From Closterium sp. NIES-65 (lineage: Eukaryota > Streptophyta > Zygnematophyceae > Desmidiales > Closteriaceae), in NCBI GenBank assembly GCA_948144175.1, contig CANXME010000043.1, positions 1,108,501 to 1,172,500 of the forward strand: DNA of 64,000 nt, read 5' to 3'. Made by a program: the position numbers and the translations under genes. The first letter of the stretch is position 1; every line of letters starts with the position of its first letter. The notes under the pieces are model-generated. The model worked only from the letters and a program-made list of their open reading frames with translations. It did no database searches and was not told where the DNA came from. This document shows positions 47,404 through 64,000 of the stretch, piece by piece.

Positions 47404-50400
47404 ATGGCCGACAAGTTGGATGTCGGTCCTGGGAAGTGGCTGTACAAGGTTGCGGACGCCGTTCCCGCCACTGATGGAAGCCCTTCCAAAGGCGAGTCGG
47501 TTTCGTCCGTCCCGAATTCTTAAGTTTTAAGTTTTCAGATGCCATGAACCTGGTCACGCTTTATCCCGCTAGCGATCGAAGCTTTTCAAAAGGCGAGTGG
47601 ATATCGTCTGTCGTTTTGTTTTCGAGTCAACCATGGTTTTTTTTTCCTTCTTCTTTTCCCTAATTTTTGTTTCAAATAGGTGCACCGCCTGCTCGCAATT
47701 TACGAATGTACAGTCGTACACCCGACGCCACGTGTCAACCCTTTCGGGATTATGCCCGTACTTCTGTTTCCACACCTCTGTTTCCCACGTACCGCGGCAT
47801 AAAAAAGCGTCTATAACGTCCCACGTGCGCAGGTCCCACGTATCGCAGCATCTACGCCAAGGATGCGTACGCCGACCTGGGGCTCGGGGTCGACACCATT
47901 GCGTACCTCGACCTGACCCCAGTCATCGACACCATGTGGAGCCTCTTCACGTGCGTCCTTCTCTTCTCCCTATCACCCGTTTATCCACGCGTTTTTGTAT
48001 CCCTCGTCGTGCATTTCGACCTTCTTATTGCGTACCTCGACCTGACCCCAGTCATCGACACCATGTGGAGCCTCTTCACGTGCGTCCTTCTCTTCTCCCT
48101 ATCACCCGTTTATCCACGCGTTTTTATATCCCTCGTCGTGCATTTCGACCTTCTTGTTGCGTACCTCGACCTGACCCCAGTCATCGACACCATGTGGAGC
48201 CTCTTCACGTGCGTCCTTCTCTTCTCCCTACCGCATGACTCGCTCGCTCGCTTATCCGCGCTTCCTTTATCCCTCGTCGCGCAATCTCACGTCTCTCTTG
48301 TGTCGACACGTGCTGGTTTTATGGTTTTATCATCATAGACGTCTTAAGGTTTAAAATCGCTATCGGTTCATCTATTCTGTGTCACTTTCTGCTTCACTCC
48401 TCACCGTGTATAGAAATGTCCAGGCGTGGGATTTTACCGCCTCTTCATGTGGTCTTTGATTGGCTTGAAATTGTGCTTAAACCCGAAACCCTGCACGAGA
48501 TCGTGACTAATTCGAGGCTGTTCTGTTCTGTACGTGCATCCAATGATCTATCGCCACGTGGCTGCCTTTCAGGGCCTCTGTGTATAGATTCGGCGACAAC
48601 AAGTTTCTGGGGAAGCGCTCAATCGTAGATGGCAAGGTATTACTCGAAGCTCAGTACCTTGTAACGGATTGCCTTGTAACGAATGGTAATTTTCGGCGAC
48701 AACCAGTTTCTGGGGAAGCGCTCGATCGTAGATGGCAAGGTAATATTTGAAGCTCAGGACCTTGTAACGGATTGCCTTGTAACGAATGGTAATGTTCGGC
48801 GACAACCAGTTTCTGGGGAAGCGCAGCCAAGGTGCTGCAGCTGGGATCAGCGTACCCTGCTTCCCTTCTTTCCCTCCACTCCCCCACGCTTTCCCCCATC
48901 TCTCCTCCCCCTTTCCCACTCCCAGGCAGGCCCGTTTGTGTGGGACACCTATTCCCAGGTGCACGACAAGGTGTTGCATCTGGGATCAGCGTACCGTGCT
49001 GCTGGGCTGGAAGCGGTGAGTAGGGGGAGGAAAGGAGGGAGCGGAAGGAGGGAAAGTGGGGGGAGAGAAAGGGAGGTGGGGTCGCTTCGTGTGGGACACG
49101 TACTCCCAGGTGCACGGCAAGGTGCTGCAGCTGGGATCAGCGTATCGTGCTGCTGGGCTGGAAGCGGTGAGTCTAGGGAGGGAAAGGGAGGGGGGGCAAG
49201 AGGGCCGGAGTGAATGGTGGGGGCCAGGAGGGGAAGGAGGAGTGGGATCAGTGTATCGTGCTGCTGGGCTGGAAGCGGTGAGTCCAGGGAGGGAAAAAGG
49301 AAAGGGTGGCACTTTAAGGGGAGGGAGGAGCGGGAGGGGAAAGTGGGGAGGGGCGGAGGGAAAGAGGGAGCGTTCAGCGTATTGTGGTGCGGGATTGGAT
49401 GATGTGAGTTCAGATAGGAAAACAAAAGGGGGGGGAGAGGAAGAGGGAGCGAGATCAGCATATGGTGCTACGGGGCTTGATGCTAAGTCAGGCGGGGACG
49501 AGGAAGGAGAGAGAGACGAGTCTGGTGGGGGGATGAGGCGCGGGACGGGTGAGGAGAGGAAGGGGAGAAGGGCGTTCAAGTTGGGAAAGATCGAAAATCT
49601 TGCTACATTTGCATCTAATCGATTGCGCACAAAGGTGACGCTCTGCCCAGTTCTCCAGGCTCTCCCAACCACTTCACACCTTTCCCAACACCTCTCCCCC
49701 CTCATCAGAACGCCAAGGTGGGCATCTACGGCATCAACTCACCTATTTGGCACCACTTACCCATCTTTAACTCTTCCAACTCCTTCGTACCTGTATCCCA
49801 CTGCCCTCTCTCTCCCATCAGAACGCCAAGGTGGGCATCTACGGCATCAACTCGCCCGAGTGGTTCATGTCTCCCAACCCCTTCCCACCTCGCCCAAACG
49901 ATTTGCACCTCTCCCAGCACCTCTCATCACTCCCTGGAATTGTATCCCACCATACTCCTTGCCCCGCATCAGAACGCCAAGGTGGGCATCTACGTCATCA
50001 ACTCGCCCGAGTGGTTCATTCCTGTTACCCATTGCCTTCCCACCTCTCCCAACTCCTTTCCACCTCTCCCAACCCGTTCTCACCTTTCCCAACACCTCTC
50101 ACCACCATCTCCCCTTCATCAGAACGCCAAGGTGGGCATCTACGGTATCAACTCGCCCGAGTGGTTCATGGCCATGGAGGTACGCTTTCTCTGATGAGAG
50201 GTTGTCATGGTGGGGGGGGTGTATGAGTGCGCATTGGCAGGTGCGCTCTACTCTACGGCATCAACTCGCCCGAGTGGTTCATGGCCATGGTCCATGGAGG
50301 TACGTACGCGCTATGGAAGGTGGGCACTGTGAGAGAGGGGGGAGTGAGTGTGCTCTGGGAGGTGTGCTCTACTCGATGTCACACACTGCCCCACTGCTCG

Positions 50401-52967
50401 CTGTCACTCCGTCCCATCTACAGCATCAACTCGCCCCAGTGGTTCGTGGCCAGGCCATGGATGGAGGTACGTGCTCACTCTGGTGGGAGGGACGCTCTTT
50501 CCAATGAGAGGTATGCATGCATAGGAGGCGACTTTTGAGTCGACTCAAAAGTCACCTAGGTATGCACGCACTGCATGCGTAGGAACGCCAAGGAAACAAA
50601 ACTCACTGCTGCGTGCCTTACCTCTGCTGCACTCTCAAGTGTTGTGACGCGTCTCGGTTATCCTGCATGCGTTTGCTTTGCTTTGCGTCATTGCGTTTCC
50701 TCTGCGCGTCTTTGCAACGCAAGTGTGTTTCCTCTCCATGCTGAACCGACTCAAAGGTCACTTGGTGTGTTTCCTCTCCATGCTGAACCGACTCAAAGAT
50801 CACTTGGTGTGTTTCCTCTCCTCTGCACGCTGAAACCCCTTTTGGTTCTTCCAGGCGTGCAATTGTCAGTCCATGCAGTGTGTGCCACTGTACGATGCAC
50901 ACAATCAGTGCACTCTCTCAGCATGCTGGCCGATCATGAGTCATCTCACATCAAAGAACGCTTCTTGTGTTTTCAATGCACGCTTAACTCCCATCTGTTC
51001 CGCCAGGCGTGCAACTGTCAGCCCATACAGTGTGTGCCACTCTTTGTTTTGAGTTGACTAAAAACACCTTCGTGTGTTTCCTCTGCACGCTGACCCCCTG
51101 TTCTGTTCCTCCAGGCATGCAACTGTCAGTCGATGCAGTGTGTGCCACTGTACGATACACTGGGTGAGTCTATAGCGAGTATGGGTGAAGTGAAACGTTG
51201 CATACAGTGCACTGGATGAGTGGGGGTCGATAGATAGCATACAAATAGCATGAAAAGTAACGTTTTTACTGAGTGAGTTGCTGTGTAGAGTGAGGTTAGA
51301 TTTTTTAGATTCTCGATGTAAGTTGCTGCATGGTATTGTTCGTCGATGCATTGTGCCGTGCATGTCTTATAGTTTGCTCTACTTTGTGAAAATCCCAGAT
51401 AGCTCTTACAAAGTTTGACGATCTCAGCCCCCGTCTCTTTCTAACCTGCGTCCATTGTCCAATAGACCCTCACTCCCCCCCTCCACCCCGCCCCTCCCCT
51501 TTGCAGGCGTGGAGGCAGTGTCAGTCATTCATTCTCAACCATGCCGAAGTGGCGCTCGCTTGTGGTCGTGAAAGCAGCCCTCCTCCTCCTTCCTCCCCCC
51601 CCTGCTGCGTATCACACAGCTCTCTGTCTCTGCTCTCCCTCTCTCCTCTCCCCTCTCTTCCCTCCATGTAGGTGCGGAGGCAGTGTCATTCATTCTCAAC
51701 CATGCGGAAGTGGCTCTCGTGGTCGTGCAAGCAGCCAAGATACCTGCTGTGAGTCATAGACTTTCTGGATCTCACAGGCTGGTTCTTGAGAATTCTCAAA
51801 AGCCAGGTCGTGCAAGCAGCCAAGATACCTGCTGTGAGTCACAGACTTTCTGGATCTCACAGGCTGGTTCTTGAGAATTCTCAAAAACCAGGTCGTGCAA
51901 GCAGCCAGATACCTGCTGTGAGTCATAGAATTTCTGGATCTCACAGGCTGGTTCTTGAGAATTCTAAAAAACCAGGTCGTGCAAGCAGCCAAGATACCTG
52001 CTGTGAGTCATTGACTTTCTGGACTGGATCTCACTGGCTGGTTCTTGAGAATTCTCAAAAACCAGGTCGTGCAAGCAACCAAGATACCTGCTGTGAGTCA
52101 TAGACTTTCTGGATCTCACAGGCTGGTTCTTGAGAATTCTCAAAAGCCAGGTCGTGCAAGCAGCCAAGATACCTGCTGTGGGTCATAGACTTTCTGGATC
52201 TCACAGGCTGGTTCTTGAGAATTCTCAAAAACCAGGTCGTGCAAGCAGCCAGCCAAGATACCTGCTGTGAGTCATAGACTTTCTGGATCTCACAGGCTGG
52301 TTCTTGAGAATTCTAAAAAACCAGGTCGTGCAAGCAGCCAAGATACCTGCCGTGAGTCATTGACTTTCTGGACTGGATCTCACTGGCTGGTTCTTGAGAA
52401 TTCTCAAAAACCAGGTCGTGCAAGCAACCAAGATACCTGCTGTGAGTCATAGACTTTCTGGATCTCACAGGCTGGTTCTTGAGAATTCTCAAAAGCCAGG
52501 TCGTGCAAGCAGCCAAGATACCTGCTGTGAGTCATTGACTTTCTGGATCCACGAAAGCCTTGACTTTCGGCTTTGAATTCCTGGATCTCACAGCATGCTG
52601 CCTGCACATTGACCCTCACAATCTCGTTTTAACATGCCCTTCTGTCCTTAGGGTTTCGGGTTCCTTGCATGCACTCCCTTCGCCCCTCGCCCCTCTCCCA
52701 TCACCCCTCGCGTCTCACCTCGTTCTCGAATCTCTTCAGCTGCTCAAGAGTCTGCCTAACTGCACACGCCTTGTTCTCATCCTGCGCACCCCTTTCTCTT
52801 TCCTCTCCCTCGCATGCACTCCCCTCGCCCCTCGCCCCTCATGCATGTGCAGCTGCTCAAGAGCCTGCCCAACTGCACTGAGAATGTCAAGAGTAAGTCG
52901 CCTGGGGCGTGGGCTTGGAGGCTTGGGGCAGTCCCTTCCATAGATTTTTTTGTTTGCGAATTTTTCC

Positions 52968-53039
<72 letters not shown>

Positions 53040-56000
53040 AGAGAATTGCATCCTTCATAGATGAAGCTCTGATCTACCAGCTTCTCACACACCCGCCTAT
53101 CGCACACTTGGCACTTTCCTAGCATCTATAATCTCCCTCCGAACCTCTCTCCCATCCCACCTTCCATCCAGGAGAATGTCGCCACGGGAATGTTGCCACA
53201 TTCGTTTTTGTCAACCCGCCTGCCGAGTTGACTTTTGAGTCGACTCAAATGTTGCCACATTCGTTTTTGTCAACCCGCCTGCCGAGTTTCCTCCTTTCTC
53301 CCTCCCCCCTCACCTCCCCTTCTCCCTCCCCTCCGTCTCCCCATTCCCTTCTCTCTCACCCTCCGGTTCTCTCTTCTTCCCCCCCCTCCATTCATATAAT
53401 CCTCCCCCTCTCCTCCCCAGCGGTGGTGAGCATGGGAGACCTGGATGCGGATTCAGCCAAGGCGCTGACAGACATGGTCATCCGAGGAGTCAGCTGGGTG
53501 GTGTCTCAACACGCCAGCTGGGTGGTGTCTCAACACGCCAGCTGGCATGTGTCTCAACACGCCAGCTGGCATGTGTCTCAACACGCCAGCTGGCATGTGG
53601 CTCAACACGCCAGCTTCCCCTGGGTTGAATCTAAGGCACCGCACCATCCCCTGTTCCCTCTTTCCCCGTTCCCCCCTCACCAGCGGTGGTGAGCATGGGA
53701 GACCTGGATGCGGATTCAGCCAAGGCACTGGCAGACAGACATGGGCATTCGGGGAGTCACCTGGGACTGGGACTCATGACTCCGTCTCCCTTCTTTTCCC
53801 CTCCCACTCCTGGTGTTTTCCCGCCTCCCCCCCACCAGCCGTGGTGAGCATGGGCGACCTGGATGCGGAGTCCGCCAAGGCACTGACAGACATGGGCGTG
53901 AAGGGAGTCAGCTGGGACGACTTTCTGAAAGAGGTGAGTCAACGCTGGTCAACGCTGGTCAACGCTGGTCAATGGCAGCGAATCAGCTAGGCGCCTGATA
54001 AATCAGAAGGGCGGTTGGCAGGCAGGCATGGGCGGGCAGACATGGGATGGGAGTCAGTGTCGATCAATGCTGGGAAAGGTGATTCAATGCTATTGCCAGT
54101 TACTGCTGGTCAATGCTGGTCAATTCTGGTCCCACGTGTCCCCACTCACGCATCCCCACTCGTCCCATATCCCACCCTGTCCCCTGCCCATCCCATTTCC
54201 TCGACCCATCTCACCAGGTCGAGGCACAGCCAGTGGAGCCACGTTAGGTCCTTCCCTCGTCCCATTCCTCCCTTCCCTCTCCGTCCCCCCTTCTCCTTCT
54301 CTCCCACCCCATCCCCACACTTCCCACTCACCAGGGCGAGGCAAAGCCAGTTGAGCCATGTTAGGTCCTTCCCTCATCCCATTCCTCCATTCCCACTCCG
54401 TCGTCCCCCCTTCTCCTTCTCTCCCACCCCCCCACTTCCCACTCATCAGGGCGAGGCGAAGCCAGTGGAGCCATGCCCCTCCAAGCCAGAGGACATCTGC
54501 ACCATCATGTACACCTCAGGTGGGCTCAGGTGTTTCCTCAGGTGGGACAGGTGCTTCCTCAGGTGGGTTCAGGTGCTTCCTCAGGTGGGTTCAGGTGCTT
54601 CTTCAGGTACTCCTCAGCAGCTCAGCTGAATCCAGGTGGTTTCACAGGTCTTACTTGAGGAATCTGTGCACCATCAGGTACACACACATCAGGTGCACAC
54701 AACGATTTAACCGCCCCCCCTGTTTTCCTGTCACCCCTCAACCGACCGACAGGCACCACGGGAGAGCCCAAGGGCGTGATGATAACGAATCATGCCCTCG
54801 CCACTGCCGTGGCGGGCACCAAGCGCTTCTGCGAGGTTAACAACTGTGTGGTGAGTGGGAGTAAAGGGGGAAGGCGGGGGTGGTGGGAGAGGAGAAGGGG
54901 AGGCAGGGGCTTGGATGCTGTGTTTTGGGTTTCGATTTTAAGGTTTAGGGTAGGGTGCTCTCGCCTCTGCTGTGGCGGACGGGCACCAAGCGCTTCTGCG
55001 AGGTCAATAACTGCGTGGTGCGTGGGAGTAAGGGGGGTGGTGGGAGGTTTAGGTTTAAGGTTTAGGGAATAGGGAGTCTCGCCACTGCCGTGGCGGGCAC
55101 CAAGCGCTTCTGCAAGGTCAACACCGGTGTGGTGAATGGGGATGGGGTTGGGTGGGTGGCAAGCTTTTAAGGCGCCTTAACAGGTGCTTCTGCGAGGTCA
55201 ACAACTGTGTGGTGAGTGGGAGTAAAGGGGGAAGGCGGGGGTGGTGGAAGAGGAGGAGAAGGGGAGGCAGGGGCTTGGATTGGATGTCCCATCAGTGTAG
55301 TGTAGGGTGCTCTCGCCACTGCTGTTGCGGGCACCAAGCGCTTCTGCGAGGTCAACACCTGTGTGGTGAGTGGGAGGGGGGGTGGGGGGAGGGGGATGCA
55401 TAGGCCTGGATGCTGCGTCAGTGGTGGGACTCTCGCCACTGCTGTTGCGGGCACCAAGCGCTTGTGCGAGGAGAGGGTGGAAGTAAGAGAGAGCCTTGGA
55501 TGTTCCATCAGTGTAGGTTAGGGTGCTCTCGCCACTGCCGTGGCAAGCAGGCACCAAGCACTTCTGCGAGGTCAACAACTGCGTGGTGCGTGGGAGTGGG
55601 CAAGGGGCGAGGAGGGGGTGGTGGGAGAGGAGGAGAAGGGGAGGCAGGGGCTTGGATTGGATGTCCCATCAGTGTAGTGTAGGGTGCTCCCTGCCTCTAC
55701 AGTTGCGGGCACCAAGCGCTTCTGCGAGGTCAACACCTGTGTGGTGCGTGGAGGGGAAGCAGGGGGGTGGGGGAGAGAAGGGGATGCATAGGCCTGGATG
55801 CTGCGTCAGTGGTGGGACTCTCTAGCCACTGCCGTTGCCGGCACCCAAGTGCTTCTGCGAGGTTACCAACTGCGTGGTGAGTGGGCAGTAGGGAGTGGTT
55901 ATTGAGAATTCTCAAAAACCAGCACTGTTGCTGCTGTGGCCACAACACAACAGCTGCTCGCATCTTCAACCACCAATTCCTGTTGTTGCCCTCCGCTCCG

Positions 56001-59000
56001 CTCCCCACTCTCTCCCCCTCCCCCTTTCACAGCTCACCCCAGCAGACATCGACATCTGTTGCGCCTCTCTCCCTCTTCCGCACTTATTCGACCACGGAGG
56101 AGACGAGATGAGCTTCTCCCCTTGATATGCGCTGTGTATCCCTCCTTGCCCACCCCCATCACAGCTCACCCCAGCGGACATCTACATATCCTACCTGCCC
56201 CTGGCACATATCTTTGCCCGCGTGGCAGAGCAGCTCATGACGCCTCCCTTTGATGTCCTCTGTATCCCCCACACCCCTCCCACCCTCACAGCTCACCGAA
56301 TCAGACATCTACATTTCCTACCTGCCCCTGGCACACATCTTTGACCGCGTGGCCGAGGAGCTTATGACCCATGTGGGGGGCTCCATTGGCTTCTGGCAAG
56401 GGGTGAGTGAGATGCGGTCGTGAGGGATGGGATGCAGTGGTGAGAGATGGAATGCGGAGGTGGGGGGGTAGATGTGGTGGTGATGGGTTTGACACCGTGT
56501 TGAGAGGTGGGACGCGGATGTGCACAGCACGTCTCCTATCTGCCCCTGGCGCATATCAATTACCGCATCGCGGAGGAGCTTATGACGCACTTGAGCGGCT
56601 CCATTGGCTTCTGGCAAGGGGTGCGACGCGGTGGTGAGGGGTGAGATGCGGTGGGATGCGGTGGTGGGGGGTGAGATGCGGTGGTGAGGTTTGGTGGGGG
56701 GTGAGATGTGGTAGGGTCTATGGCACACATATTCGTGGCAGAGGAGCTCATGGCGCTCAAGCCAGCCCCGCCGCACACACTCGCCCTCTTCCTTTTCGCT
56801 TCCCTTCTCTCCTCCCCTCCACTGCCCTTGTATGCCCGCCAATCCCCTTATCCCACCAGGACGTGAGGCGGCTCAAAGACGACCTGGAGGCCCTCAAGCC
56901 CACCTCGCCTCACACACCGTCCCCTTCCCTTCCTTCCCCTACCCCTCCATTGCCCCTTGAACTCCGCCCTTCCCCCCCCTTCTCCCGCACCCCATCAAGA
57001 CGTGAAGCTGCCCACAGCCAACTCTCCTCACACACCCTGCGCTCCCTCCCCTGTCCTTTCCCCTTCGCTCCCCCGCACTTCCACACCCTTCTTTCCAACC
57101 CCATCAGGATGTGAGGAACCTCACAAACGACTTGGAGGCCCTCAAGCCCACCTTCTTCTGCGGAGTGCCGCGCATCTTTGACCGCATCCACTCGGGTAGG
57201 GGCCTGATTGAGTCAGTGTGCTGTGCTTATCCGCAAACGCCCCTGCCGTCGCATTTCCCACAAGCAAGCCAGCAAGCCAGGGACTAACCTTCGGTATGAC
57301 TTCTGAGAATTCTCAAAAGTCATACCAAGCGAGGATCCTGTGCACCTACCTCATTTCCCCATTCCCTGTGCCTCTCTATTCCCTTCCCTTCATCTCAGCC
57401 GTCATATCTAAGATTGAGTCCACGGGCGGGCTCACCAAGATGCTGTTCGACTGTGCCTACAGCACCAACCAAGCACGGAAGCAAGGGAGCCTGGCAGGAT
57501 CCTGTGCACCTACCTCATTTCCCCATTCCCTGTGCCTCTCTATTCCCTTCCCTTCATCCCAGCCGTCATCTCTAAGATTGAATCAACAGGCGGGCTCACC
57601 AAGATGCTGTTCGACTATGCCTACAGCACCAAGCAAGCGCGCCTGGCGGCAGGGGTGAAGATTCGAGACGCCACGCCAATCTTTGACTTCCTCGTCTTCA
57701 GCAAGGTGAGTGGGTGGCTGTGGGTGGGTGGGTGGGTGGGTGGCAGCAGGAGTGAAGATCCGAGACGCCACTCCCATTTTTTACTTCCTCGTCTTCAGCA
57801 AGGTGAGTGGGTGGCTGTGGGTGGGTGCGAGAGGAGAGGTCTGCGTGTGCGTTCGGAAGAGGTGCCTTGATCAATGAACACGCACCGGTGGCAGCGGCAG
57901 GGGTGAAGATCCGACACGCCAGGCCCATTCTTGACTTGTTTGTATTTAACAGGGTGAGTTTGTGTGGCTGTGGGTGGGTGAGGAGAGGTGAGCGTGTGAG
58001 TCTCTAGAGGTGCCTTGAACGCACACAGCTGGCAGCAGAGCAGCAGGGGTGAAGATCCAACACACCATGCCCATATTCAATCCCCCACCCCACGTCTTTC
58101 CTCCACCTCACTCCTGCCACAGATCAAGGCGCGGCTGGGTGGCAACGTGCGGATTATCTGCTCCGGTGCTGCCCCTCTCGCCCCTCACGTGGAGGAGTTT
58201 TTGAAGATTGCCATGTGCTGCCCCGTGGTGCAGGGGTATGGTGAGTTTGAGAGCGGTACAGTGCGATTGAGAGGGGTGCGGTGAGTCTGCCCCGTGGTGC
58301 AGGGGTATGGTGAGTGTGATCCTATGCGAAAAAAAGGGGGTTTGGGTTGGATGGAGTGACTAGAGTGGTGGGATGCGGTGCTGCCCGGTTACTGTCTGGT
58401 TGGTGTTGCCCTTCTCCTCCTTGTCTGTCCCGCGCCTCACATGGATGGAGGTGTGCTTGAAAGATTGCCATGTGCTGCCACGTGCAATTTCCTTCTCCCC
58501 ACCCCTCCCCCACACACCCTCCCTCCCCTTCCCCCAGGCCTCATGGAGACCAACACGAGCGGCTTCATCTTGTGCGTGGATTGTATCGAGCAGGCCGGCA
58601 CTGCTGGGCCGCCCATGCCCACGCTCGAAACCTCCATCTCACCCCCTCCCCCCTCCCTCTCCGTTCCACAAATCCTTCCCGGCTTCCCCTGGCCAATCCT
58701 CCAGGTCTCACGGAGACCAACACGAGCGGCTTCATCTCGTACGCTGATCGCATTGAGCAGCCCGGCACCATCAGCCCGCCCATGCCCAAGCTCGTGCCCG
58801 CCCATGCCCAAGCTCGTGCCCGCCCATGCCCGGTCGCCTCAACCACATGCTCATAGCAACCCCCCGTCCTCACTCCTTCTCAACACCCTCAGGTCTCACC
58901 GAGACCAACACGAGCGGCTTCATCTCATACGTGGATCACATCGAGCAGACCGGCACGGTCGGCCCGCCCATGCCCACCCTCTAGACCCTTCTCCTCTCAT

Positions 59001-62000
59001 CTCATCCAATGCCCTCTAATTCCCTCCCTCCGTTTCCTAACAGGTCTCACCGAAACCAACACGAGTGGCTTCATCTCGTACGCGGATCGCATCGAGCAGG
59101 CCGGCACCGTTGGCCCGCCCATGCCCACGCTCGAAACCCGCCTCGAATCCATCCCCGAGATGAACTACGATGCTATTGGTGCCAAACTGGAAGGAGAATC
59201 AGGGGAGGCGGTGCATCCCCCGAGGGGGGAGGTGTGCATTCGCGGGCCGATTCTCTTCTCGGGGTATTACAAGCGCGAGGATCTGACCAAAGAGGCAGTG
59301 GATGCGGAGGGGTGGTTCCACACGGGCGACATTGGCGAGTGGCAGGCAGATGGGTCGATGAAGATCATCGATCGGAAAAAGAACATTTTTAAGCTGGCTC
59401 AAGGGGAGTACGTGGCTGTGGAGAATCTCGAGAACGTCTTTGGCAACTGCACTGCTATTGACATGGTGAGTGGTGGGGAGTGATGGGGAGTGGTGGTGAT
59501 GGTGAGTGGTGGGGAGAGGGAGGGAGGATTTGACCAAGGAGGCTGTGGATGCGGAGGGGTGGTTCCACTCGGGAGACATTGGCGAGTGGCAGGCGGATGG
59601 GTCGATGAAGATCATCAATCGGAAGAAGAATATATTCAAGTTGGCGCAAGGGGAATATGTTGCCGCCCTGTCTCACCCCTTCTGCTCTCTCTGCTCTCTC
59701 TTCCATCCCTCCCTTCCCTCACACCAGGTGTGGGTGTATGGCAACAGCTTTGAGGCAGTGCTGGTGGCGGTGGTGGTACCAAACAAGCCGACGCTGCTAG
59801 AGTGGGCCAAGGGGGCAGGTGTGGAGGGGGATTATGCTGCCCTGTGCGCCACTGAGGAGGCAAAGAAATTTATTCTCGGGCAGCTGACTGAGACAGGAAA
59901 GAAGGGCAAGGTGAGAGGGGTGGAAGGGGGGAAAGAGATAGAAAGCAGTTGTGGTATTAGGAGAGGAGAGGCGGGCATTTATATTACCTGTAGGTGGTGA
60001 CTCCCCTTCTCGCGCTCGAGTGGGCCAAGGGGGCGGGCATGGAGGGGGATTATGCTGCCCTCTGCGGCACTGAGGAGGCAAAGAAATTTATTCTCGGGCA
60101 GCTGACCGACACGGGCAAGAAGGGCAAGGTAAGATGCTGAAAGCGAGGGGGGTGGGATGACAAGGGAGGAGTGGTTTGAGGTCGTGTCTATACTAGAGGC
60201 TTTCTGAGGTCAGAGAGAGTACAGCCAGAGGAGAGGTTTGAGGCTTTCTTAGATTTTGAAAGCGTCCATGTGGAAAGCTGCCTTCCCCCCCCCTCCCCTT
60301 TTTCCCTTGTCTTTTTTTTGTTCTCCTGTGATCTGTGCCCCCCTCCAGCTGATGGGCTTATATTGGTTCTCCTGTGATCTGTGCCCCCCTCCAGCTGATG
60401 GGCTTTGAGATGGTGAAGGCGGTGCATTTGGAGTCACAGCCGTTCCACATGGAGAGGGATCTGCTGACTTTCCCCCCTACCACCCCCTCCCCTCCCTTCT
60501 TTACTGCTGCCATGTTTCCCGGTATGTCCTATGCCCCCATGTGCACCAGCTGAAGGGCTTTGAGATGGTGAAGGCGGTGCATTTGGAGTCACAGCCCTTT
60601 GACATGGAGAGGGACCTGCTCACGCCCACGTTCAAGAAGAAGCGTCCTCAGCTGCTCAAGTACTACCAGGTGGGTTCAGGGCTCAGGTGGGTGACTAGAC
60701 TCTGGTATTTACGTGCAGGCAGACTTGTTTAGTGTTGCGGTGGGTGTGTTGTGTTGTCAAGCCGTTCGACTTGGAAGAGTTTGCTGGCGCCCACGTTCAA
60801 GAAGAAGCGCCTGCAACTGCTCAATCACCACCAGGCTGGTTATAGCATCATAAGGCCTGTTCTTGTTGTGAGTTTTTGTTTTAGATTTCTCAAAAAAATC
60901 CTTATAGCATCATAAGGCCTGTTCTCGTTTTTAGCAAGGATTTGCTCTCTTGGGTTGGGAGGCACGTTTGGCACAATGTTTTTATGGTAAAGTAAGGGCA
61001 TATCTTTGGTTTGGGTCAAAAGGCCACTTTCGGTCATGCGTGTTTTCCGCATGACCCAAACAGCACAAAACGCCACCTTATCCGCGCTTCAGAAGGCCAC
61101 TTTGGGTCGTGAGCGATTTCCGCATGACCCAAACAGTAGGATGAACAGTGCCATGACCCGAGCCAAAGGTACGCCCTAAATTGGGTTTTTGGGTCCCTGT
61201 TCGAAGTGCCTCAAGAGTAAGTAATTCTCTCAAATGTGAATATCGGAATGGCATAAGGGTTTGGACACATCCTCCTAGGACAGGAATTTCCAATTGCGCA
61301 TGCACTCATCAACCATGCACAATTTTGGGTTGCTGGTTTCACGTTTGTGTTGGCAGCAGCCTGCGATTGTGCACAGATGATTAACGATGCGCAATTTGAT
61401 TTTTCCATCTTAGGAGGATGTGCGCAAGTTCCGATGCCGTTTGATCATGCCCTTTGTGTGGATTTGTAATTCATTTGTACTCATTGCACCATGTTTTGTG
61501 GAAATAATGCACTGTTGGGATGCACACTTGGCTACACGTTTTTAGCCTCTGAAGAAAAGTTTTTGAATATCTTGTTCAAAGTCGCCTCGAAAAGAACATA
61601 TTGGACCGCCGGTTTGAGACGCCTCAAACAATGCTCTTGGTTTGCCTTTTTTTAAGCTCCTTAAAAACAGATGTGCACAGGCGGAGTTGGCACTGCAAGT
61701 CAAATAAACTTCACGCGAAGGAGCCTGCACTGGTTGAAGTCGTTGGGTGTACTCGTTTGTAACCACCCAGCTTCTGCTATCTTTCAAAAAGGCTGGCTCA
61801 AGCCGGGAGCTTGTCATTTGTCCGCACTGATACCCGAAACCCCTTGCCTTTGCCCCCCGGCTGATGTAATACTAAGGCCTTCAACTTTTGCAAGCAAAAG
61901 CATCCAGGCGGTTTTTGAGGCGCCTCAAAAGTGGTCAAAAGCATCCAGGCGGTTTTCCTGTTTTTTCTCTTTCTCCCCTCCGCTTGCTTCTGCCTGTTAT

Positions 62001-62139
62001 TGGGCACAAATTAACGCCCACCTTATTTGCCATTTCATACCACACGTGCATTCGCCTGCCCACCTTGCTTCTCCCTTATCCCGTCTCTCCCCCCCATCAG
62101 GCGCAAATTGATGCCATGTATGCAAGTCTCAAGAAGTGA
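47404..62139 (+). CDS. LACS: Long-chain acyl-CoA synthetase, 19 exons
   Basis: Activates fatty acids to acyl-CoA (ATP-dependent, via acyl-adenylate). Exons: 47404-47491, 47833-47950, 48573-48636, 48926-49015, 50123-50179, 51115-51163, 51672-51748, 52853-52892, 53839-53933, 54450-54519, 54753-54850, 56292-56402, 57108-57195, 57563-57705, 58123-58240, 59044-59465, 59728-59910, 60550-60669, 62101-62139. All phases match, giving 2070 coding bases and 689 residues; plant LACS proteins are usually about 660-700. Motifs: MYTSGTTGEPKG (about 246-257), YLPLAHIFDRV (about 292-302), QGYGLTE (about 432-438), GWFHTGDIGEW (about 525), IIDRKKNIFKLAQGEY (about 544), LTPTFKKKRPQLLKYY near the C-terminus. The start ATG gives an N-terminus like plant LACS (KWLYKVADAVPATDGSPSKG). 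It ends ASLKK, without a peroxisomal SKL signal, so an ER or lipid-body LACS is more likely than peroxisomal. Intron 1 starts with GC instead of GT. Almost every exon has partial extra copies in the neighbouring introns. Confidence 0.9.
47564..47592 (+). repeat. Degraded copy of LACS exon 1 end plus GC donor
   Basis: cccgctagcgatcgaagc...caaaag|gcgagtgg resembles the end of exon 1 and its GC donor (tccaaag|gcgagtcgg at 47485-47500). The following bases (atatcgtctgtc versus tttcgtccgtc) match too, so the duplicated segment spans the exon-intron boundary. Confidence 0.55.
47901..48235 (+). repeat. 129-bp tandem array: LACS exon 2 end plus donor, three copies
   Basis: The segment from gcgtacctcgacctgacccc through the exon end (cttcac|gtgcgtcc) and into the intron occurs at 47901, 48030 and 48159, with a period of exactly 129 bp. 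The exon parts are 47901-47950 (real exon 2 end), 48030-48079 and 48159-48208. Because 129 is a multiple of three and the units are open, each later donor is in the same phase as the first. Confidence 0.9.
48692..48824 (+). repeat. Two downstream copies of LACS exon 3
   Basis: Copy 2 (48692-48739) has ttcggcgacaaccagtttct and ends gatggcaag|gtaata. Copy 3 (48795-48824) is cut after ggaagcgc and runs straight into an exon 4 fragment. The shift from the real donor at 48637 to the copy donor at 48740 is 103 bp. Neither copy has an acceptor. Confidence 0.85.
48825..48857 (+). repeat. Exon 4 fragment fused to an exon 3 copy
   Basis: ccaaggtgctgcagctggga... matches the middle of exon 4 (aaggtgttgcatctgggatc) and is joined without a gap to the truncated exon 3 copy. 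This is the only upstream copy in the gene that carries neither acceptor nor donor. Confidence 0.75.
49081..49487 (+). repeat. Four downstream copies of LACS exon 4 end plus donor
   Basis: Copies end at 49166 (ggaagcg|gtgagtct, nearly full length), 49277 (ggaagcg|gtgagtcc), 49403 (gatgat|gtgagttc) and about 49487 (gatgctaagtcag, donor lost). They become shorter and more diverged with distance from the intact exon at 48926-49015, suggesting serial duplication. Confidence 0.85.
49709..50019 (+). repeat. Three upstream copies of LACS exon 5 start plus acceptor
   Basis: At 49709, 49822 and 49973 the sequence (c)atcag|aacgccaaggtgggcatc is repeated, with 33-47 bases of exon before divergence. The intact exon is at 50123-50179. 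The intron parts before each acceptor are also similar (cacctctcccaac words), so intron and exon were copied together. Confidence 0.9.
50252..50466 (+). repeat. Two downstream copies of LACS exon 5 end plus donor
   Basis: 50252-50299 ends tccatggag|gtacgtac and 50416-50466 ends atggatggag|gtacgtgc. Both contain the catcaactcgcccgagtggt-type core of the exon but no acceptor. Confidence 0.85.
50526..50557. repeat. 32-bp palindrome, core ttgagtcgactcaa
   Basis: Arms agg(c/t)gactttt...aaaagtcacct pair around a TCGA centre with one mismatch. It lies in LACS intron 5. Confidence 0.85.
50855..51042 (+). repeat. Two upstream copies of LACS exon 6 start plus acceptor
   Basis: ttccag|gcgtgcaattgtcagtcc at 50855 and cgccag|gcgtgcaactgtcagccc at 51007 repeat the beginning of exon 6 (51115). 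Each follows similar intron sequence with tttcctctgcacgctga. Neither has the exon 6 donor. Confidence 0.85.
51507..51570 (+). repeat. Upstream copy of LACS exon 7
   Basis: ttgcag|gcgtggaggcagtgtcag at 51507 repeats exon 7 from its acceptor to cgtggtcgt-like sequence, then diverges. A 4-base duplication (cattcatt) puts it out of frame relative to the intact exon at 51672-51748. Confidence 0.85.
51721..52545 (+). repeat. Tandem array of LACS exon 7 end plus donor, about ten copies
   Basis: A unit of about 82-90 bp is repeated about ten times. Each contains ggtcgtgcaagcagccaaga, then tacctgct|gtgagtca (exon end and donor), a short intron piece (actttctggatctcacaggc) and a palindrome with core ttgagaattctcaa. 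The first copy is the real end of exon 7 (donor at 51749). Every later unit keeps a plausible donor, and one has a duplicated agcc (52248-52256). Confidence 0.92.
52740..52771 (+). repeat. Upstream copy of LACS exon 8 start plus acceptor
   Basis: ctcttcag|ctgctcaagagtctgcctaa at 52740 repeats exon 8 (52853) up to ctgcac and then diverges. The surrounding ctcgcccctc words are also repeated before the real acceptor. Confidence 0.8.
52969..53036 (+). repeat. (GT)34 microsatellite
   Basis: Uninterrupted GT dinucleotide run in LACS intron 8, about 75 bases after the exon 8 donor. Confidence 0.98.
53189..53288. repeat. Palindrome between two 41-bp direct repeats
   Basis: The 41-bp segment starting aatgttgccacattcg and ending tgccgagtt occurs at 53189-53229 and 53248-53288. 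The 18 bases between are gacttttgagtcgactca, the core of the TTGAG-N4-CTCAA palindrome family. Confidence 0.85.
53421..53763 (+). repeat. Two upstream copies of LACS exon 9 plus a small array
   Basis: Copies with acceptor start at 53421 and 53684 (ccag|cggtggtgagcatgggagac) and stay similar for about 75 bases. The first runs into a short array of about five units like tgtctcaacacgccagctgg (53507-53610), derived from its own end. The intact exon, with donor, is at 53839-53933. Confidence 0.88.
54218..54362 (+). repeat. Two upstream copies of LACS exon 10 start plus acceptor
   Basis: At 54218 and 54335, ccag|g(t/g)cgaggca is followed by agccagt(g/t)gagcca, then diverges into ttaggtccttccctc. 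The same tcatcccattcc words precede the next acceptor each time, including the real one at 54450. Confidence 0.88.
54955..55876 (+). repeat. Eight downstream copies of LACS exon 11 end plus donor
   Basis: After the intact exon (54753-54850) come eight partial copies ending near 55017, 55131, 55211, 55365, 55470, 55585, 55743 and 55876. They carry (g)gcaccaagcgcttctgcgag and most end tgtg|gtgagtgg or gcgtg|gtgcgtgg. One (about 55470) has lost the donor. Intron pieces such as gtggtgggagaggagaagg are repeated between them. Confidence 0.92.
55896..55921. repeat. Palindrome, core ttgagaattctcaa
   Basis: tggtta-ttgagaattctcaa-aaacca, an imperfect 26-bp fold in LACS intron 11, directly after the last exon 11 donor copy. 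Confidence 0.75.
56033..56245 (+). repeat. Two upstream copies of LACS exon 12 start plus acceptor
   Basis: cacag|ctcaccccagcagacatc at 56033 (short) and cacag|ctcaccccagcggacatc at 56165 (about 80 bases, readable as LTPADIYISYLPLAHIFARV). The intact exon at 56292 starts LTESDIY, so the copies look more like the family consensus (LTPAD) than the intact exon does. Confidence 0.88.
56527..56760 (+). repeat. Downstream copies of LACS exon 12
   Basis: 56527-56620 contains tctcctatctgcccctggcg through ggcttctggcaagggg without an acceptor. A smaller fragment around 56716-56760 has tggcacacatattcgtggca. Both lie in intron 12 before the exon 13 copies. Confidence 0.8.
56860..57030 (+). repeat. Two upstream copies of LACS exon 13 start
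   Basis: ccaccag|gacgtgaggcggctcaaa at 56860 keeps about 46 exon bases (DVRRLKDDLEALKPT). The copy at about 56999 keeps acgtgaagctgcccacag only. Both then run into tcgcctcacacaccctcccc-type intron words. The intact exon is 57108-57195. Confidence 0.85.
57293..57326. repeat. 34-bp near-perfect palindrome, core tgagaattctca
   Basis: Arms ggtatgactt and aagtcatacc pair around the core with a single mismatched pair. It lies in LACS intron 13. Confidence 0.85.
57399..57499 (+). repeat. Upstream copy of LACS exon 14 start plus acceptor
   Basis: ctcag|ccgtcatatctaagattgag keeps about 95 exon bases (readable SKIESTGGLTKMLFDCAYS) and then changes to gaagcaagggagcctggcag. The preceding roughly 70 intron bases (gatcctgtgcacctacctca onward) are repeated before the intact exon at 57563. 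Confidence 0.9.
57742..58077 (+). repeat. Three downstream copies of LACS exon 14 end
   Basis: 57742-57802 ends gtcttcagcaag|gtgagtgg. 57887-57951 ends tatttaacag|ggtgag with the donor weakened. 58029-58077 lacks the end. All carry gcaggagtgaagatccga-like sequence from the second half of the intact exon. Confidence 0.9.
58287..58485 (+). repeat. Downstream copies of LACS exon 15 end
   Basis: 58287-58309 repeats ctgccccgtggtgcaggggt|atg with donor gtgagtgt. A longer, badly decayed copy follows at about 58376-58485 (gatgcggtgctgccc ... gaaagattgccatgtgctgc). Confidence 0.8.
58539..58985 (+). repeat. Three upstream copies of LACS exon 16 start plus acceptor
   Basis: Copies begin at about 58539, 58706 and 58894, each ag|g(t/c)ctca(c/t)(g/c)gagaccaac and readable as ETNTSGFI with 85-95 exon bases ending near cccgcccatgcccacgctcg. 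The intact exon starts at 59044. The lipid-synthetase signature TETNTSG is kept in two of three copies. Confidence 0.92.
59528..59665 (+). repeat. Downstream copy of LACS exon 16 middle
   Basis: About 138 bases readable as DLTKEAVDAEGWFHSGDIGE and onward to KLAQGEYVA repeat 59280-59415 of the intact exon at high identity (third-position changes dominate). The part with the real donor is not included. Confidence 0.9.
60003..60128 (+). repeat. Downstream copy of LACS exon 17 end plus donor
   Basis: gagtgggccaagggggcggg through aagaagggcaag|gtaagatg repeats the last 110-120 bases of exon 17 (59728-59910), with synonymous and a few coding changes and a good donor. Confidence 0.9.
60318..60468 (+). 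repeat. Two upstream copies of LACS exon 18 start plus acceptor
   Basis: ttctcctgtgatctgtgccc plus ccctccag|ctgatgggctt occurs twice in tandem (acceptors before about 60348 and 60393). The second keeps about 75 exon bases (GFEMVKAVHLESQPF). The intact exon starts at 60550 with ctgaagggctttgag. Confidence 0.88.
60757..60836 (+). repeat. Downstream copy of LACS exon 18 end
   Basis: aagccgttcgacttggaaga ... cccacgttcaagaagaagcg ... caccaccag|gctggtta repeats the last 70-80 bases of exon 18. The donor base has changed (gc instead of gt). Confidence 0.85.
60837..62100 (+). other. Last LACS intron, with small repeats but no exon copies
   Basis: This is the rest of intron 18, the longest intron of the gene. 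It has two tail-to-head copies of a segment containing a ccgcatgacccaaacag word (61020-61064 and 61093-61137), two copies of atagcatcataaggcctgtt (about 60842 and 60903), and palindromes at 61612-61629 and 61913-61930. No copy of the tiny last exon is visible. Confidence 0.6.
61895..61956. repeat. Palindrome with 21-bp direct repeat on both sides
   Basis: caaaagcatccaggcggtttt occurs at 61895-61915 and 61936-61956. TTTTGAGGCGCCTCAAAA (61913-61930) sits between and overlaps the first copy. Confidence 0.85.
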
Positions 62140-62767: not shown

Positions 62768-64000
62768 TTGTTTCTGATGATACGTGATACGAGGTTGGAC
62801 CATAGAGCGGGAGGCGCTGCGGACGATAGAGCGGGAGGCATGGCGGACGATATAGTGGGAGGCGGGGCGGACGATAGAGCGGGGAGTAACACGCGGGTGG
62901 GCGAGAGAGGTGACGTGGATGATAGCACAAAAGCCTCTCATACTGGAGACGTGCTGATGACAGCCGGCGCGGCCGTGACAGCAGCAGCACATGACCGGAT
63001 GTCTCAAGAGTATCAAGTTGCGGTTCAGAGCGGTGCTGAGGGGTGTGTCGGGGGCGCGTCAGGGGACGATAGAGCGGCAGGTGCGGCGGATAGTGCAAGC
63101 CGTGGCGACACGACCGTGACGGCAGCTCAGGCGATTCGAGAATGTCATACCACGACGGTTGAGAGCGGTGCTGAGGGGTGCGTGGGGGAGGGGGAGGCGG
63201 AGGGCGGACAGGCGGAGAGCGCAAGCGGGGCAGAGCGGAGAGTGGCGGACGGGGAAGTGGCTGCAGCGGGGGCTACTAGCGGACGAGGCGCAGTGGCGGA
63301 GTGTTCGAGGGAGAGATTGGGGGAAGGGTTGGCGGAAGGATTGGCGGAGCGGATCCGCGCGCTGGTTGATGCGGCGGACATGGGCGCAGTGTGGGAGGCG
63401 CAAGGGTCAAGGTGAGGGCGCACGCCCTTGTTACCCTCAGCTATGCGCATTCCCCGCAATCCTCCCTTGTCCCTCTCTGTCTCCCCCACCACGCCTATCA
63501 GTCTCGGCGCACTGCAGGACACGGCAGGCATATCGGCGCGCTACAGGACACGGCAGGCATATCGGCGCACTACAGGACACGGCAGGCATATCGGCGCGCT
63601 ACAGGACACGGCAGGCATATCGGCGCACTACAGGACACGGCAGGCATATCGGCGCGCTACAGGACACGGCAGGCATATCGGCGCACTACAGGACACGGCA
63701 GGCATATCGGCGCACTACAGGACACGGCAGGCATATCGGCGCACTACAGGACACGGCAGGCATATCGGCGCACTACAGGACACGGCAGGCATATCGGCGC
63801 ACTATAGGACACGGCAGGCATATCGGCGCACTACAGGACACGGCAGGCATATCGGCGCATCTCAATGCGTTCTCACTAAAGGCTCTAACTTGCGTTCCGT
63901 GTTCTCCCCTCTCTACCCTCCCTCCTCCCACCTCCCCCCTCCCCATGTATCAGCCTGGGCGCGCTACAGGACACGGCGGCCATCCTGGCGCATTTCAACG
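62768..64000 (+). CDS. Probable KxDL-motif protein, N-terminal exons, runs off the window
   Basis: A first exon open from 62768 to 63411 encodes a long alanine/glycine/acidic-rich tail, with degenerate repeats (GADDRAG and SGAEGCVG types), ending RIRALVDAADMGAVWEAQGS at the donor tcaag|gtgagg. A later exon starting at 63954 (tatcag|cctgggcgcg) continues in phase with LGALQDTAAILAHFN and reaches the window edge. The spacing and pattern (RI..(L/M)V...D(V/M).A...AQ...L..(F/L)...(N/D)..L..FN) resemble the start of the KxDL domain, a small coiled-coil subunit of the BORC and BLOC-1-type complexes that position lysosomes or endosomes. The diagnostic KxDL box would lie beyond 64000, so the family call is tentative. 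The start codon is uncertain. An earlier exon copy lies at 63502-63880. Confidence 0.45.
62795..62885 (+). repeat. Degenerate repeats in the first exon of the KxDL-like gene
   Basis: Three to four units like gcggacgatagagcgggagg, in frame. Related words recur at about 63065-63085. They encode GADDRAG-type repeats in the low-complexity N-terminal region. Confidence 0.7.
63502..63862 (+). repeat. 29-bp tandem array, 12 copies, inside a KxDL exon copy
   Basis: After an acceptor (cctatcag|tctcggcgcactgcag) the exon-like sequence expands into 12 units of cggcgcactacaggacacgg plus caggcatat (29 bp). It then resumes as an exon-like end (gcgcatctcaatgcgttctc). The period is not a multiple of three, so the array destroys this exon copy. 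An unexpanded copy is at 63954 onward. Confidence 0.92.

Follow-up and report, generated by a model that had tools for sequence, protein, structure and literature searches.

All but the last of the 19 exons of a LACS-like long-chain acyl-CoA synthetase gene (47404-62139, forward strand) are accompanied in their adjoining introns by partial, imperfect copies of themselves. The gene lies in a stretch of 64,000 nucleotides that was analysed as a whole and is referred to here as the window. Our searches confirm that these ladders of exon copies are real. They were very probably left by tandem duplication acting locally and repeatedly (exon stuttering), together with unequal exchange, and filtered by selection.

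The gene model was assembled by hand from splice sites. Its exons lie at 47404-47491, 47833-47950, 48573-48636, 48926-49015, 50123-50179, 51115-51163 and 51672-51748 (E1 to E7), at 52853-52892, 53839-53933, 54450-54519, 54753-54850, 56292-56402 and 57108-57195 (E8 to E13) and at 57563-57705, 58123-58240, 59044-59465, 59728-59910, 60550-60669 and 62101-62139 (E14 to E19). Joined together they give 689 codons and a stop with no frame break; a GC opens intron 1, GT opens introns 2-18 and AG closes all 18. Residues 83-511 form an AMP-binding domain (Pfam, 4.1e-79), and among the best 60 of 170 matches in the PDB carboxylic acid reductases come top, followed by long-chain acyl-CoA synthetase and other adenylating enzymes. 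Whilst the domain is computed, the name LACS follows the plant family, the gene being one that we take to encode a plant-type long-chain acyl-CoA synthetase. An earlier reading made from the letters alone had joined the intact exons in phase into a full-length 689-residue LACS and considered the gene functional; the open frame and the domain agree with this, and the gene does look functional. Its GC content (0.549 in introns, 0.578 in exons) is lower than that of most of the window, and it contains 32 G4-like motifs against 1.2 in shuffles, with 40 such motifs in window positions 1-47000.

Partial exon copies and their polarity

When the exons alone were used as queries against the exon-masked gene (score of at least 36, 100 shuffles as control), 17 of the 19 returned copies, 52 on the same strand and none on the opposite strand, with 0.01 expected from shuffles. 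The splice letters AG or GT were kept at the exon edge in 38 of these 52 copies (13 acceptor, 25 donor; rows counted by hand). A second search, in which each exon was extended by 40 nt on either side (score of at least 40, 10 shuffles per exon, best shuffle score 34), gave 54 same-strand copies from 18 of the 19 exons, each lying in an intron that adjoins its exon; a single opposite-strand match, consisting mostly of intron sequence, was excluded. At this threshold E19 had no copy and intron 10 contained none. Copies are present in 17 of the 18 introns and at 25 of the 36 inner exon sides, 11 of these 25 having only one. There are between 1 and 10 copies per exon, with exon parts of 23-140 bp and identities of 75-100%, and for E1 the evidence is one weak copy. 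The sequence-only reading had described partial copies beside 18 of 19 exons, roughly 50 or more fragments in 15 kb and a splice site on most of them, all of which agrees with our counts; it had also given one to nine pieces per exon, of which the minimum stands and the maximum does not, as E7 has 10.

In 48 of the 54 copies the match extends at least 2 bases beyond the exon edge, 19 on the acceptor side and 29 on the donor side, and the direction depends on where the copy lies. The acceptor edge is crossed in 19 of the 20 upstream copies and the donor edge in 29 of the 34 downstream copies, and no copy of either group crosses the opposite edge of its exon. No copy is a complete extra exon with both splice sides (0 of 54), as a mutually exclusive or tandem exon would be.

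All of the copies lie on the forward strand, and those upstream of their exons comprise the acceptor side and the 5' part of the exon. They belong to exon 5 (three copies, 49679-50019), exon 6 (two, 50819-51041), exon 7 (one, 51473-51579), exon 8 (one, 52737-52765), exon 9 (two, 53404-53767), exon 10 (two, 54205-54360), exon 12 (two, 56015-56241), exon 13 (one, 56852-56905), exon 14 (one, 57359-57477, a 164-bp tandem repeat), exon 16 (three, 58517-58988) and exon 18 (one, 60391-60468), the exception being one internal piece of exon 4 without a splice side (48828-48861). Downstream copies comprise the 3' part of the exon and the donor side in the case of exon 1 (one copy, 47564-47612, score 43), exon 2 (two, 48027-48230, a 129-bp tandem), exon 4 (two, 49086-49295), exon 7 (nine, 51806-52549, a tandem array of 85 bp), exon 12 (one, 56534-56654), exon 14 (two, 57746-57980), exon 17 (one, 60014-60134) and exon 18 (one, 60756-60841). 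Some of the downstream ladders are mixed: exon 3 has two copies in a 103-bp tandem (48692-48824) of which the first has the donor side, exon 5 has two copies of its 3' part (50252-50490) of which the second has it, exon 11 has eight (54956-55890) of which seven have it, and exon 15 has two (58287-58484) of which the first has it, whilst exon 16 has one internal part without a splice side (59524-59663).

Taken with their spacers, the ladders span 7642 of the 12666 intron bases of the gene. The repeat units hold intron and exon together, as in 49816-50019 compared with 49967-50169 and 55187-55471 compared with 55561-55862, and purely intronic repeats are few (a 42-bp array at 50723 and repeats at 53189, 60840 and 61016).

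Probable tandem duplication, unequal exchange and a palindrome

The polarity of the copies argues for tandem duplication, since a duplicated block that reaches from an intron into an exon must give an acceptor side and exon 5' part followed by the whole exon, with the mirrored arrangement downstream. We propose that break-and-fill or slippage would duplicate tens to hundreds of bases, from within an exon into the neighbouring intron, and that this would leave the whole exon together with a partial copy on its intron side and the protein unharmed, whilst whole-exon duplications would be purged by selection. Homology between a copy and the conserved exon would then allow unequal exchange, giving more rungs and a longer intron, and the rungs would subsequently decay neutrally. 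The exon may be a good anchor for such exchange, since selection preserves exons while introns drift.

One exchange of this kind is evident. A second LACS gene copy on contig C1835 is 99.7% identical to that in the window. The alignment of the two covers 16841 bases with 52 mismatches and eight small indels (1-21 bp), and C1835 also has insertions of 515 bp in the exon 11 ladder and 598 bp at exon 18. The 515-bp insertion is a tandem duplication that runs from inside exon 11 to the corresponding place in its fourth copy, and the new junction falls inside the stretch that the two share, with the first part of copy 4 before it and the last part of exon 11 after it; the number of copies rises from 8 to 12. 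This event is an unequal exchange between exon 11 and its own fourth copy, so that the exon was itself a partner in at least one of the expansions. The 598-bp insertion multiplies a 46-bp unit (acceptor and exon 18 start), which is present as 14 near-complete units compared with 1 in the window. Both insertions enlarge existing ladders, with no founding event among them, and their presence in a near-identical gene copy indicates that the process is recent. PMC10407611 reports that haploid cells were sampled and that more than half of ortholog groups are duplicated in NIES-65, and C1835 therefore probably carries a recent gene duplicate of one strain, not an allele or the gene of another individual.

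The absence of whole-exon copies can be set against a model of random breakpoints. With 24 unit lengths typed from the spacings and uniform breakpoints, the model predicts about 0.4 whole-exon duplications for each duplication that has a single end in an exon. Finding none at 25 exon sides then has a P of about 2e-4 to 2e-3, provided that the sides are independent of each other. That such copies are absent though expected suggests selection against extra exons. A mechanism that targets exons was considered and rejected. Random duplications would be one-ended in an exon in 21% of cases with the present introns and in 49-54% with ancestral introns of 150-200 bp (by hand calculation, 70-85% of the duplications that are either one-ended or intron-only), so that with short ancestral introns no exon targeting is required.

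Part of the LACS region is also marked by a palindrome, TTTTGAGNNNNCTCAAAA, which with up to 2 mismatches matches the window 17 times (0.16 expected), always within 50.5-62 kb. Nine of these matches are units of one array, and there are 10 distinct places between 50526 and 61930. Across the genome there are 30,327 exact copies, against 4 of the backward pattern, and a sister palindrome has 73 copies against 7 for its control. Members of the family are near-perfect palindromes of 18-36 bp with the core TTTTGAG-NNNN-CTCAAAA and centres that include TCGA, AATT, GCGC and ACGT; among the copies listed, some recur at constant spacing, for example 37, 42 or 53 bp. Window positions 1-40000, unlike the LACS part, have long low-complexity tandem arrays, many with periods in multiples of three (CAG-, CCACCG- and GGCGGC-rich), and contain no match to the core palindrome.

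A mobile palindromic element with this core, inserting with long flanking direct duplications, could have seeded the ladders, and both the clustering of the palindrome in the gene and its abundance in the genome would fit such an origin. So would the finding that, at the loci examined, direct repeats directly flank 5 of 12 core palindromes compared with 40 of 600 random places (Fisher P 0.0009; score of at least 30, one of five thresholds computed), although these random places were drawn over whole loci, exons included. The same flanks occur at 1 of 26 other palindromes, and cases with the core palindrome lie at 53231 (41-bp repeat) and 61913 (18-bp repeat). Against this, a junction palindrome is visible by eye at only 3 of the 25 exon sides (upstream of E6, downstream of E7 and of E11). 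Proximity to boundaries inside the gene is not significant either, with 6 of 10 palindromes at most 12 bp from a duplication boundary compared with 44% of random intron places (P 0.24), a count that rises to 8 of 10 when two further boundary pairs, chosen for flanking palindromes, are included. In a gap-based test, which missed known cases, 3 of 35 gapped repeats at gene loci had a palindrome, compared with 1.3% of random stretches. We regard a seeding element as unlikely. The palindrome may act as an agent, be left as a scar or be an independent repeat with a preference for the same places, and a junction scar is one possible reading. It could be the agent or scar of a tandem-duplication process specific to the lineage of this alga, if its arrival goes along with, or brings about, a doubling of the tens of bases beside it; with exon-copy exchange, that process would then have made much of the intron sequence across the genome. 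This is a tentative proposal to which we give a minor chance. Among the publications listed for the palindrome, the nearest concerns palindromic repeats in Volvox organelle DNA (PMC2670323).

Probable decay of the copies and their distribution in the genome

Raw differences between exons and copies fall strongly at third codon positions (59/39/151 at positions 1/2/3, with 126 synonymous and 96 nonsynonymous codons), which would suggest coding constraint on the copies. This was rejected on polarisation, which puts the bias on the exon branch; the raw excess stems partly from one exon change being counted against every copy. The polarised count uses only sites covered by two or more copies (683/687/694 copy-sites at the three positions) and excludes changes common to some copies (2/2/8). 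Changes private to a copy number 30/20/36 (n=86, P 0.11 against an even distribution), and those in which the exon differs from all copies number 5/1/19 (n=25). Single-copy sites, which are not polarisable, lean towards third positions (15/241, 12/241 and 47/238). With copy-private changes near-even over codon positions and exon-private changes at third positions, the copies look like decaying relics and are probably not spliced.

Use of the copies, whether as alternative or mutually exclusive exons or as splice decoys that regulate LACS, is distinctly improbable. The splice-site side that most of them keep would permit cryptic splicing, and they contain only 1 in-frame stop in 898 codons where a hand estimate for neutral change gives about 4, a shortfall which may reflect recency or some constraint. 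However, none has both splice sides, 9 of the 54 carry a net frameshift, their private changes lack a clear codon bias, and their number varies between near-identical gene copies and between paralogs.

The sequence-only reading had wanted assembly stacking excluded. On this rival account, noisy long reads would have been piled up or joined wrongly where the sequence repeats. Repeats would be error-prone if the assembly is the PacBio CLR one of PMC10407611, and the 515- and 598-bp differences on C1835 could themselves be errors of collapse or expansion. The copies nevertheless diverge from their exons by up to 25%, two contigs share the ladders with the mismatches, eight small and two large indels given above, a paralog holds a different set, and other genes show the same polarity. 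An assembly artefact is very hard to credit.

The paralog was found by searching the assembly (874.08 Mb, 2400 contigs), where it is present on contigs C1756, C423, C1577 and C1931. Of 13 exon cores picked from the C1756 tblastn rows, where composite rows of low identity (64-119 and 138-182) were set aside, 3 are accompanied by copies; these number 11, none of them on the opposite strand. All 11 score higher against their own exon than against LACS-1, the LACS-1 alignment of one of them being slightly more identical over just 22 bases. Since the paralog's copies are closer by score to its own exons, its ladders arose independently. Compared with C1756 there are 8 mismatches in C423, 6 in C1577 and 12 in C1931, the last of which also has, within the aligned gene, a 30-bp deletion in the paralog ladder (indels of at least 12 bp only).

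Ladders also occur in other families. Ten exon matches were taken by rank from the tables for chaperonin, proteasome and kinesin; near-identical twins and matches with stops were skipped, and one proteasome match on C1862 was passed over without a rule. At a score of at least 40, 6 of the 10 have copies, 15 on the same strand and 1 on the opposite strand (shuffle expectation 0), with the same polarity as in LACS. Large conserved HSP70 and AMP-binding blocks gave copies in 3 of 17 clusters (12 same-strand, 0 opposite-strand), in a set where two of the three positive clusters are probably one gene on C501 and some contigs may be bacterial. A rough protein-level scan of proteasome and chaperonin rows, one per near-identical set chosen by eye, found a same-strand partial neighbour in 1 of 23 proteasome and 3 of 47 chaperonin rows, all four with the expected polarity. 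At the protein level, an HSP70 match to 110-213 on C2039 is followed by nested partial matches to 157-215, 163-213 and 172-213, and one to 110-213 on C957 by 156-213 and 172-213, in the manner of a ladder. Two kinesin-like exon matches, on C511 (712945-713361) and likewise on C1725, cover the same profile positions, one on each strand and separated by about 90 bases, and may be an inverted duplication.

Within the window, a 29-bp unit repeated 12 times at 63504-63943 matches the first bases of the exon presumed to come next, near 63954, with 10 matches at a score of at least 36. The sequence-only reading had stated that the next gene shows copies too, which this array bears out, and had suggested a genome-wide process. 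Copies are indeed not confined to one contig, as C1835, the paralog contigs and the other families carry ladders, and the proportions of affected exons in the paralog and in the ten-exon sample speak for a process reaching other genes. Its spread is uneven, with few of the large-exon clusters affected, and this counts against a uniform process; any genome-wide rate would be an extrapolation from these samples. Ladders occur widely but in patches, and this LACS gene is extreme among the genes that carry them. An origin of the copies through RNA, by retro-insertion or reverse splicing, has no supporting point that we found and is disfavoured to the point of being negligible by units that include intron flanks and are repeated in tandem together with them.

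Comparison with known systems

The sequence-only reading had known of no description of such a pattern. One exists for chicken, where Hron et al. 2026 (PMC12954441) define exon stuttering by partial copies of exons that lie in adjacent introns and carry a donor or acceptor. According to that paper, the copies are imperfect, the coding sequence is intact and introns vary in length within the species; 115 genes with 236 introns are affected, 190 of them on dot chromosomes out of 5572 dot-chromosome introns; more than 90% of sources lie within 1 base of an exon border, with a median of 4 copies per expansion; purely intronic repeat expansion is part of the picture, and an association with GC-rich micro-chromosomes is not definitional. 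Gerbil genes are named there as data not shown. Among the Closterium papers listed, judged by titles and the starts of abstracts, none concerned partial exon copies, and 12 of the 21 places in PMC10407611 that mention exons, introns or repeats contain nothing on exon copies.

The LACS ladders resemble those of chicken in that imperfect, direct tandem copies of variable number lie in the adjacent intron, derive from the exon edge with its donor or acceptor side and are accompanied by intronic repeats. The coding sequence is likewise intact, as the 689-residue open frame with its AMP-binding domain demonstrates. Intron length is a separate matter: two near-identical gene copies in one assembly differ by 515 and 598 bp, but these are probably duplicates within a single strain and not individuals of a species. 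The LACS ladders differ from the chicken case in their algal host and in density, with 17 of 18 introns of one gene affected compared with 190 of 5572 dot-chromosome introns in PMC12954441. They differ too in an intron GC of 55%, unlike the GC-rich micro-chromosomes of the chicken association, in the single copy at 11 of 25 exon sides compared with the chicken median of 4, and in the palindrome at some junctions.

Exon stuttering has been reported mostly as a peculiarity of bird dot chromosomes, and the present gene is a dense, independent case in a probable zygnematophyte, a close relative of land plants. This suggests a general mutational process of some genomes, rather than a bird oddity. 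A group I intron at 18S position 1506 is a mark of Zygnematophyceae; the 18S rRNA gene here has an insertion shortly before its 3' end (L028, about 600-1110), of which 669-1076 weakly resembles group I introns (20.2 bits, E 0.0084, compared with a gathering score of 50 bits). The process offers a simple route by which introns lengthen through local duplication with the protein intact. It would also explain exon fragments with a single splice site scattered in introns, of which gene predictors should be wary, and the decaying copies form a record from which the rate of tandem duplication and selection against extra exons could be measured, exon by exon.

Tandem exon duplication, including that which gives mutually exclusive exons, repeats exon sequence in tandem within a gene, and the LACS ladders are unlike it in that no above-threshold copy is a complete exon. 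Another parallel comes from potato, where PMC4974935 describes a tandem duplication across an intron-exon boundary that made a new intron in one event; the boundary-crossing duplication is the same, whereas in LACS many events lengthen existing introns and leave the mRNA model unchanged. In mouse and human cells, as PMC8355091 reports, fill-in at induced breaks whose 3' overhangs are complementary also gives small tandem duplications, and by analogy this would be a plausible source of the founding duplications in LACS. Taken together, these comparisons place the LACS ladders within exon stuttering and not in a separate kind, and what is new here is the lineage, the density and some of the mechanism.
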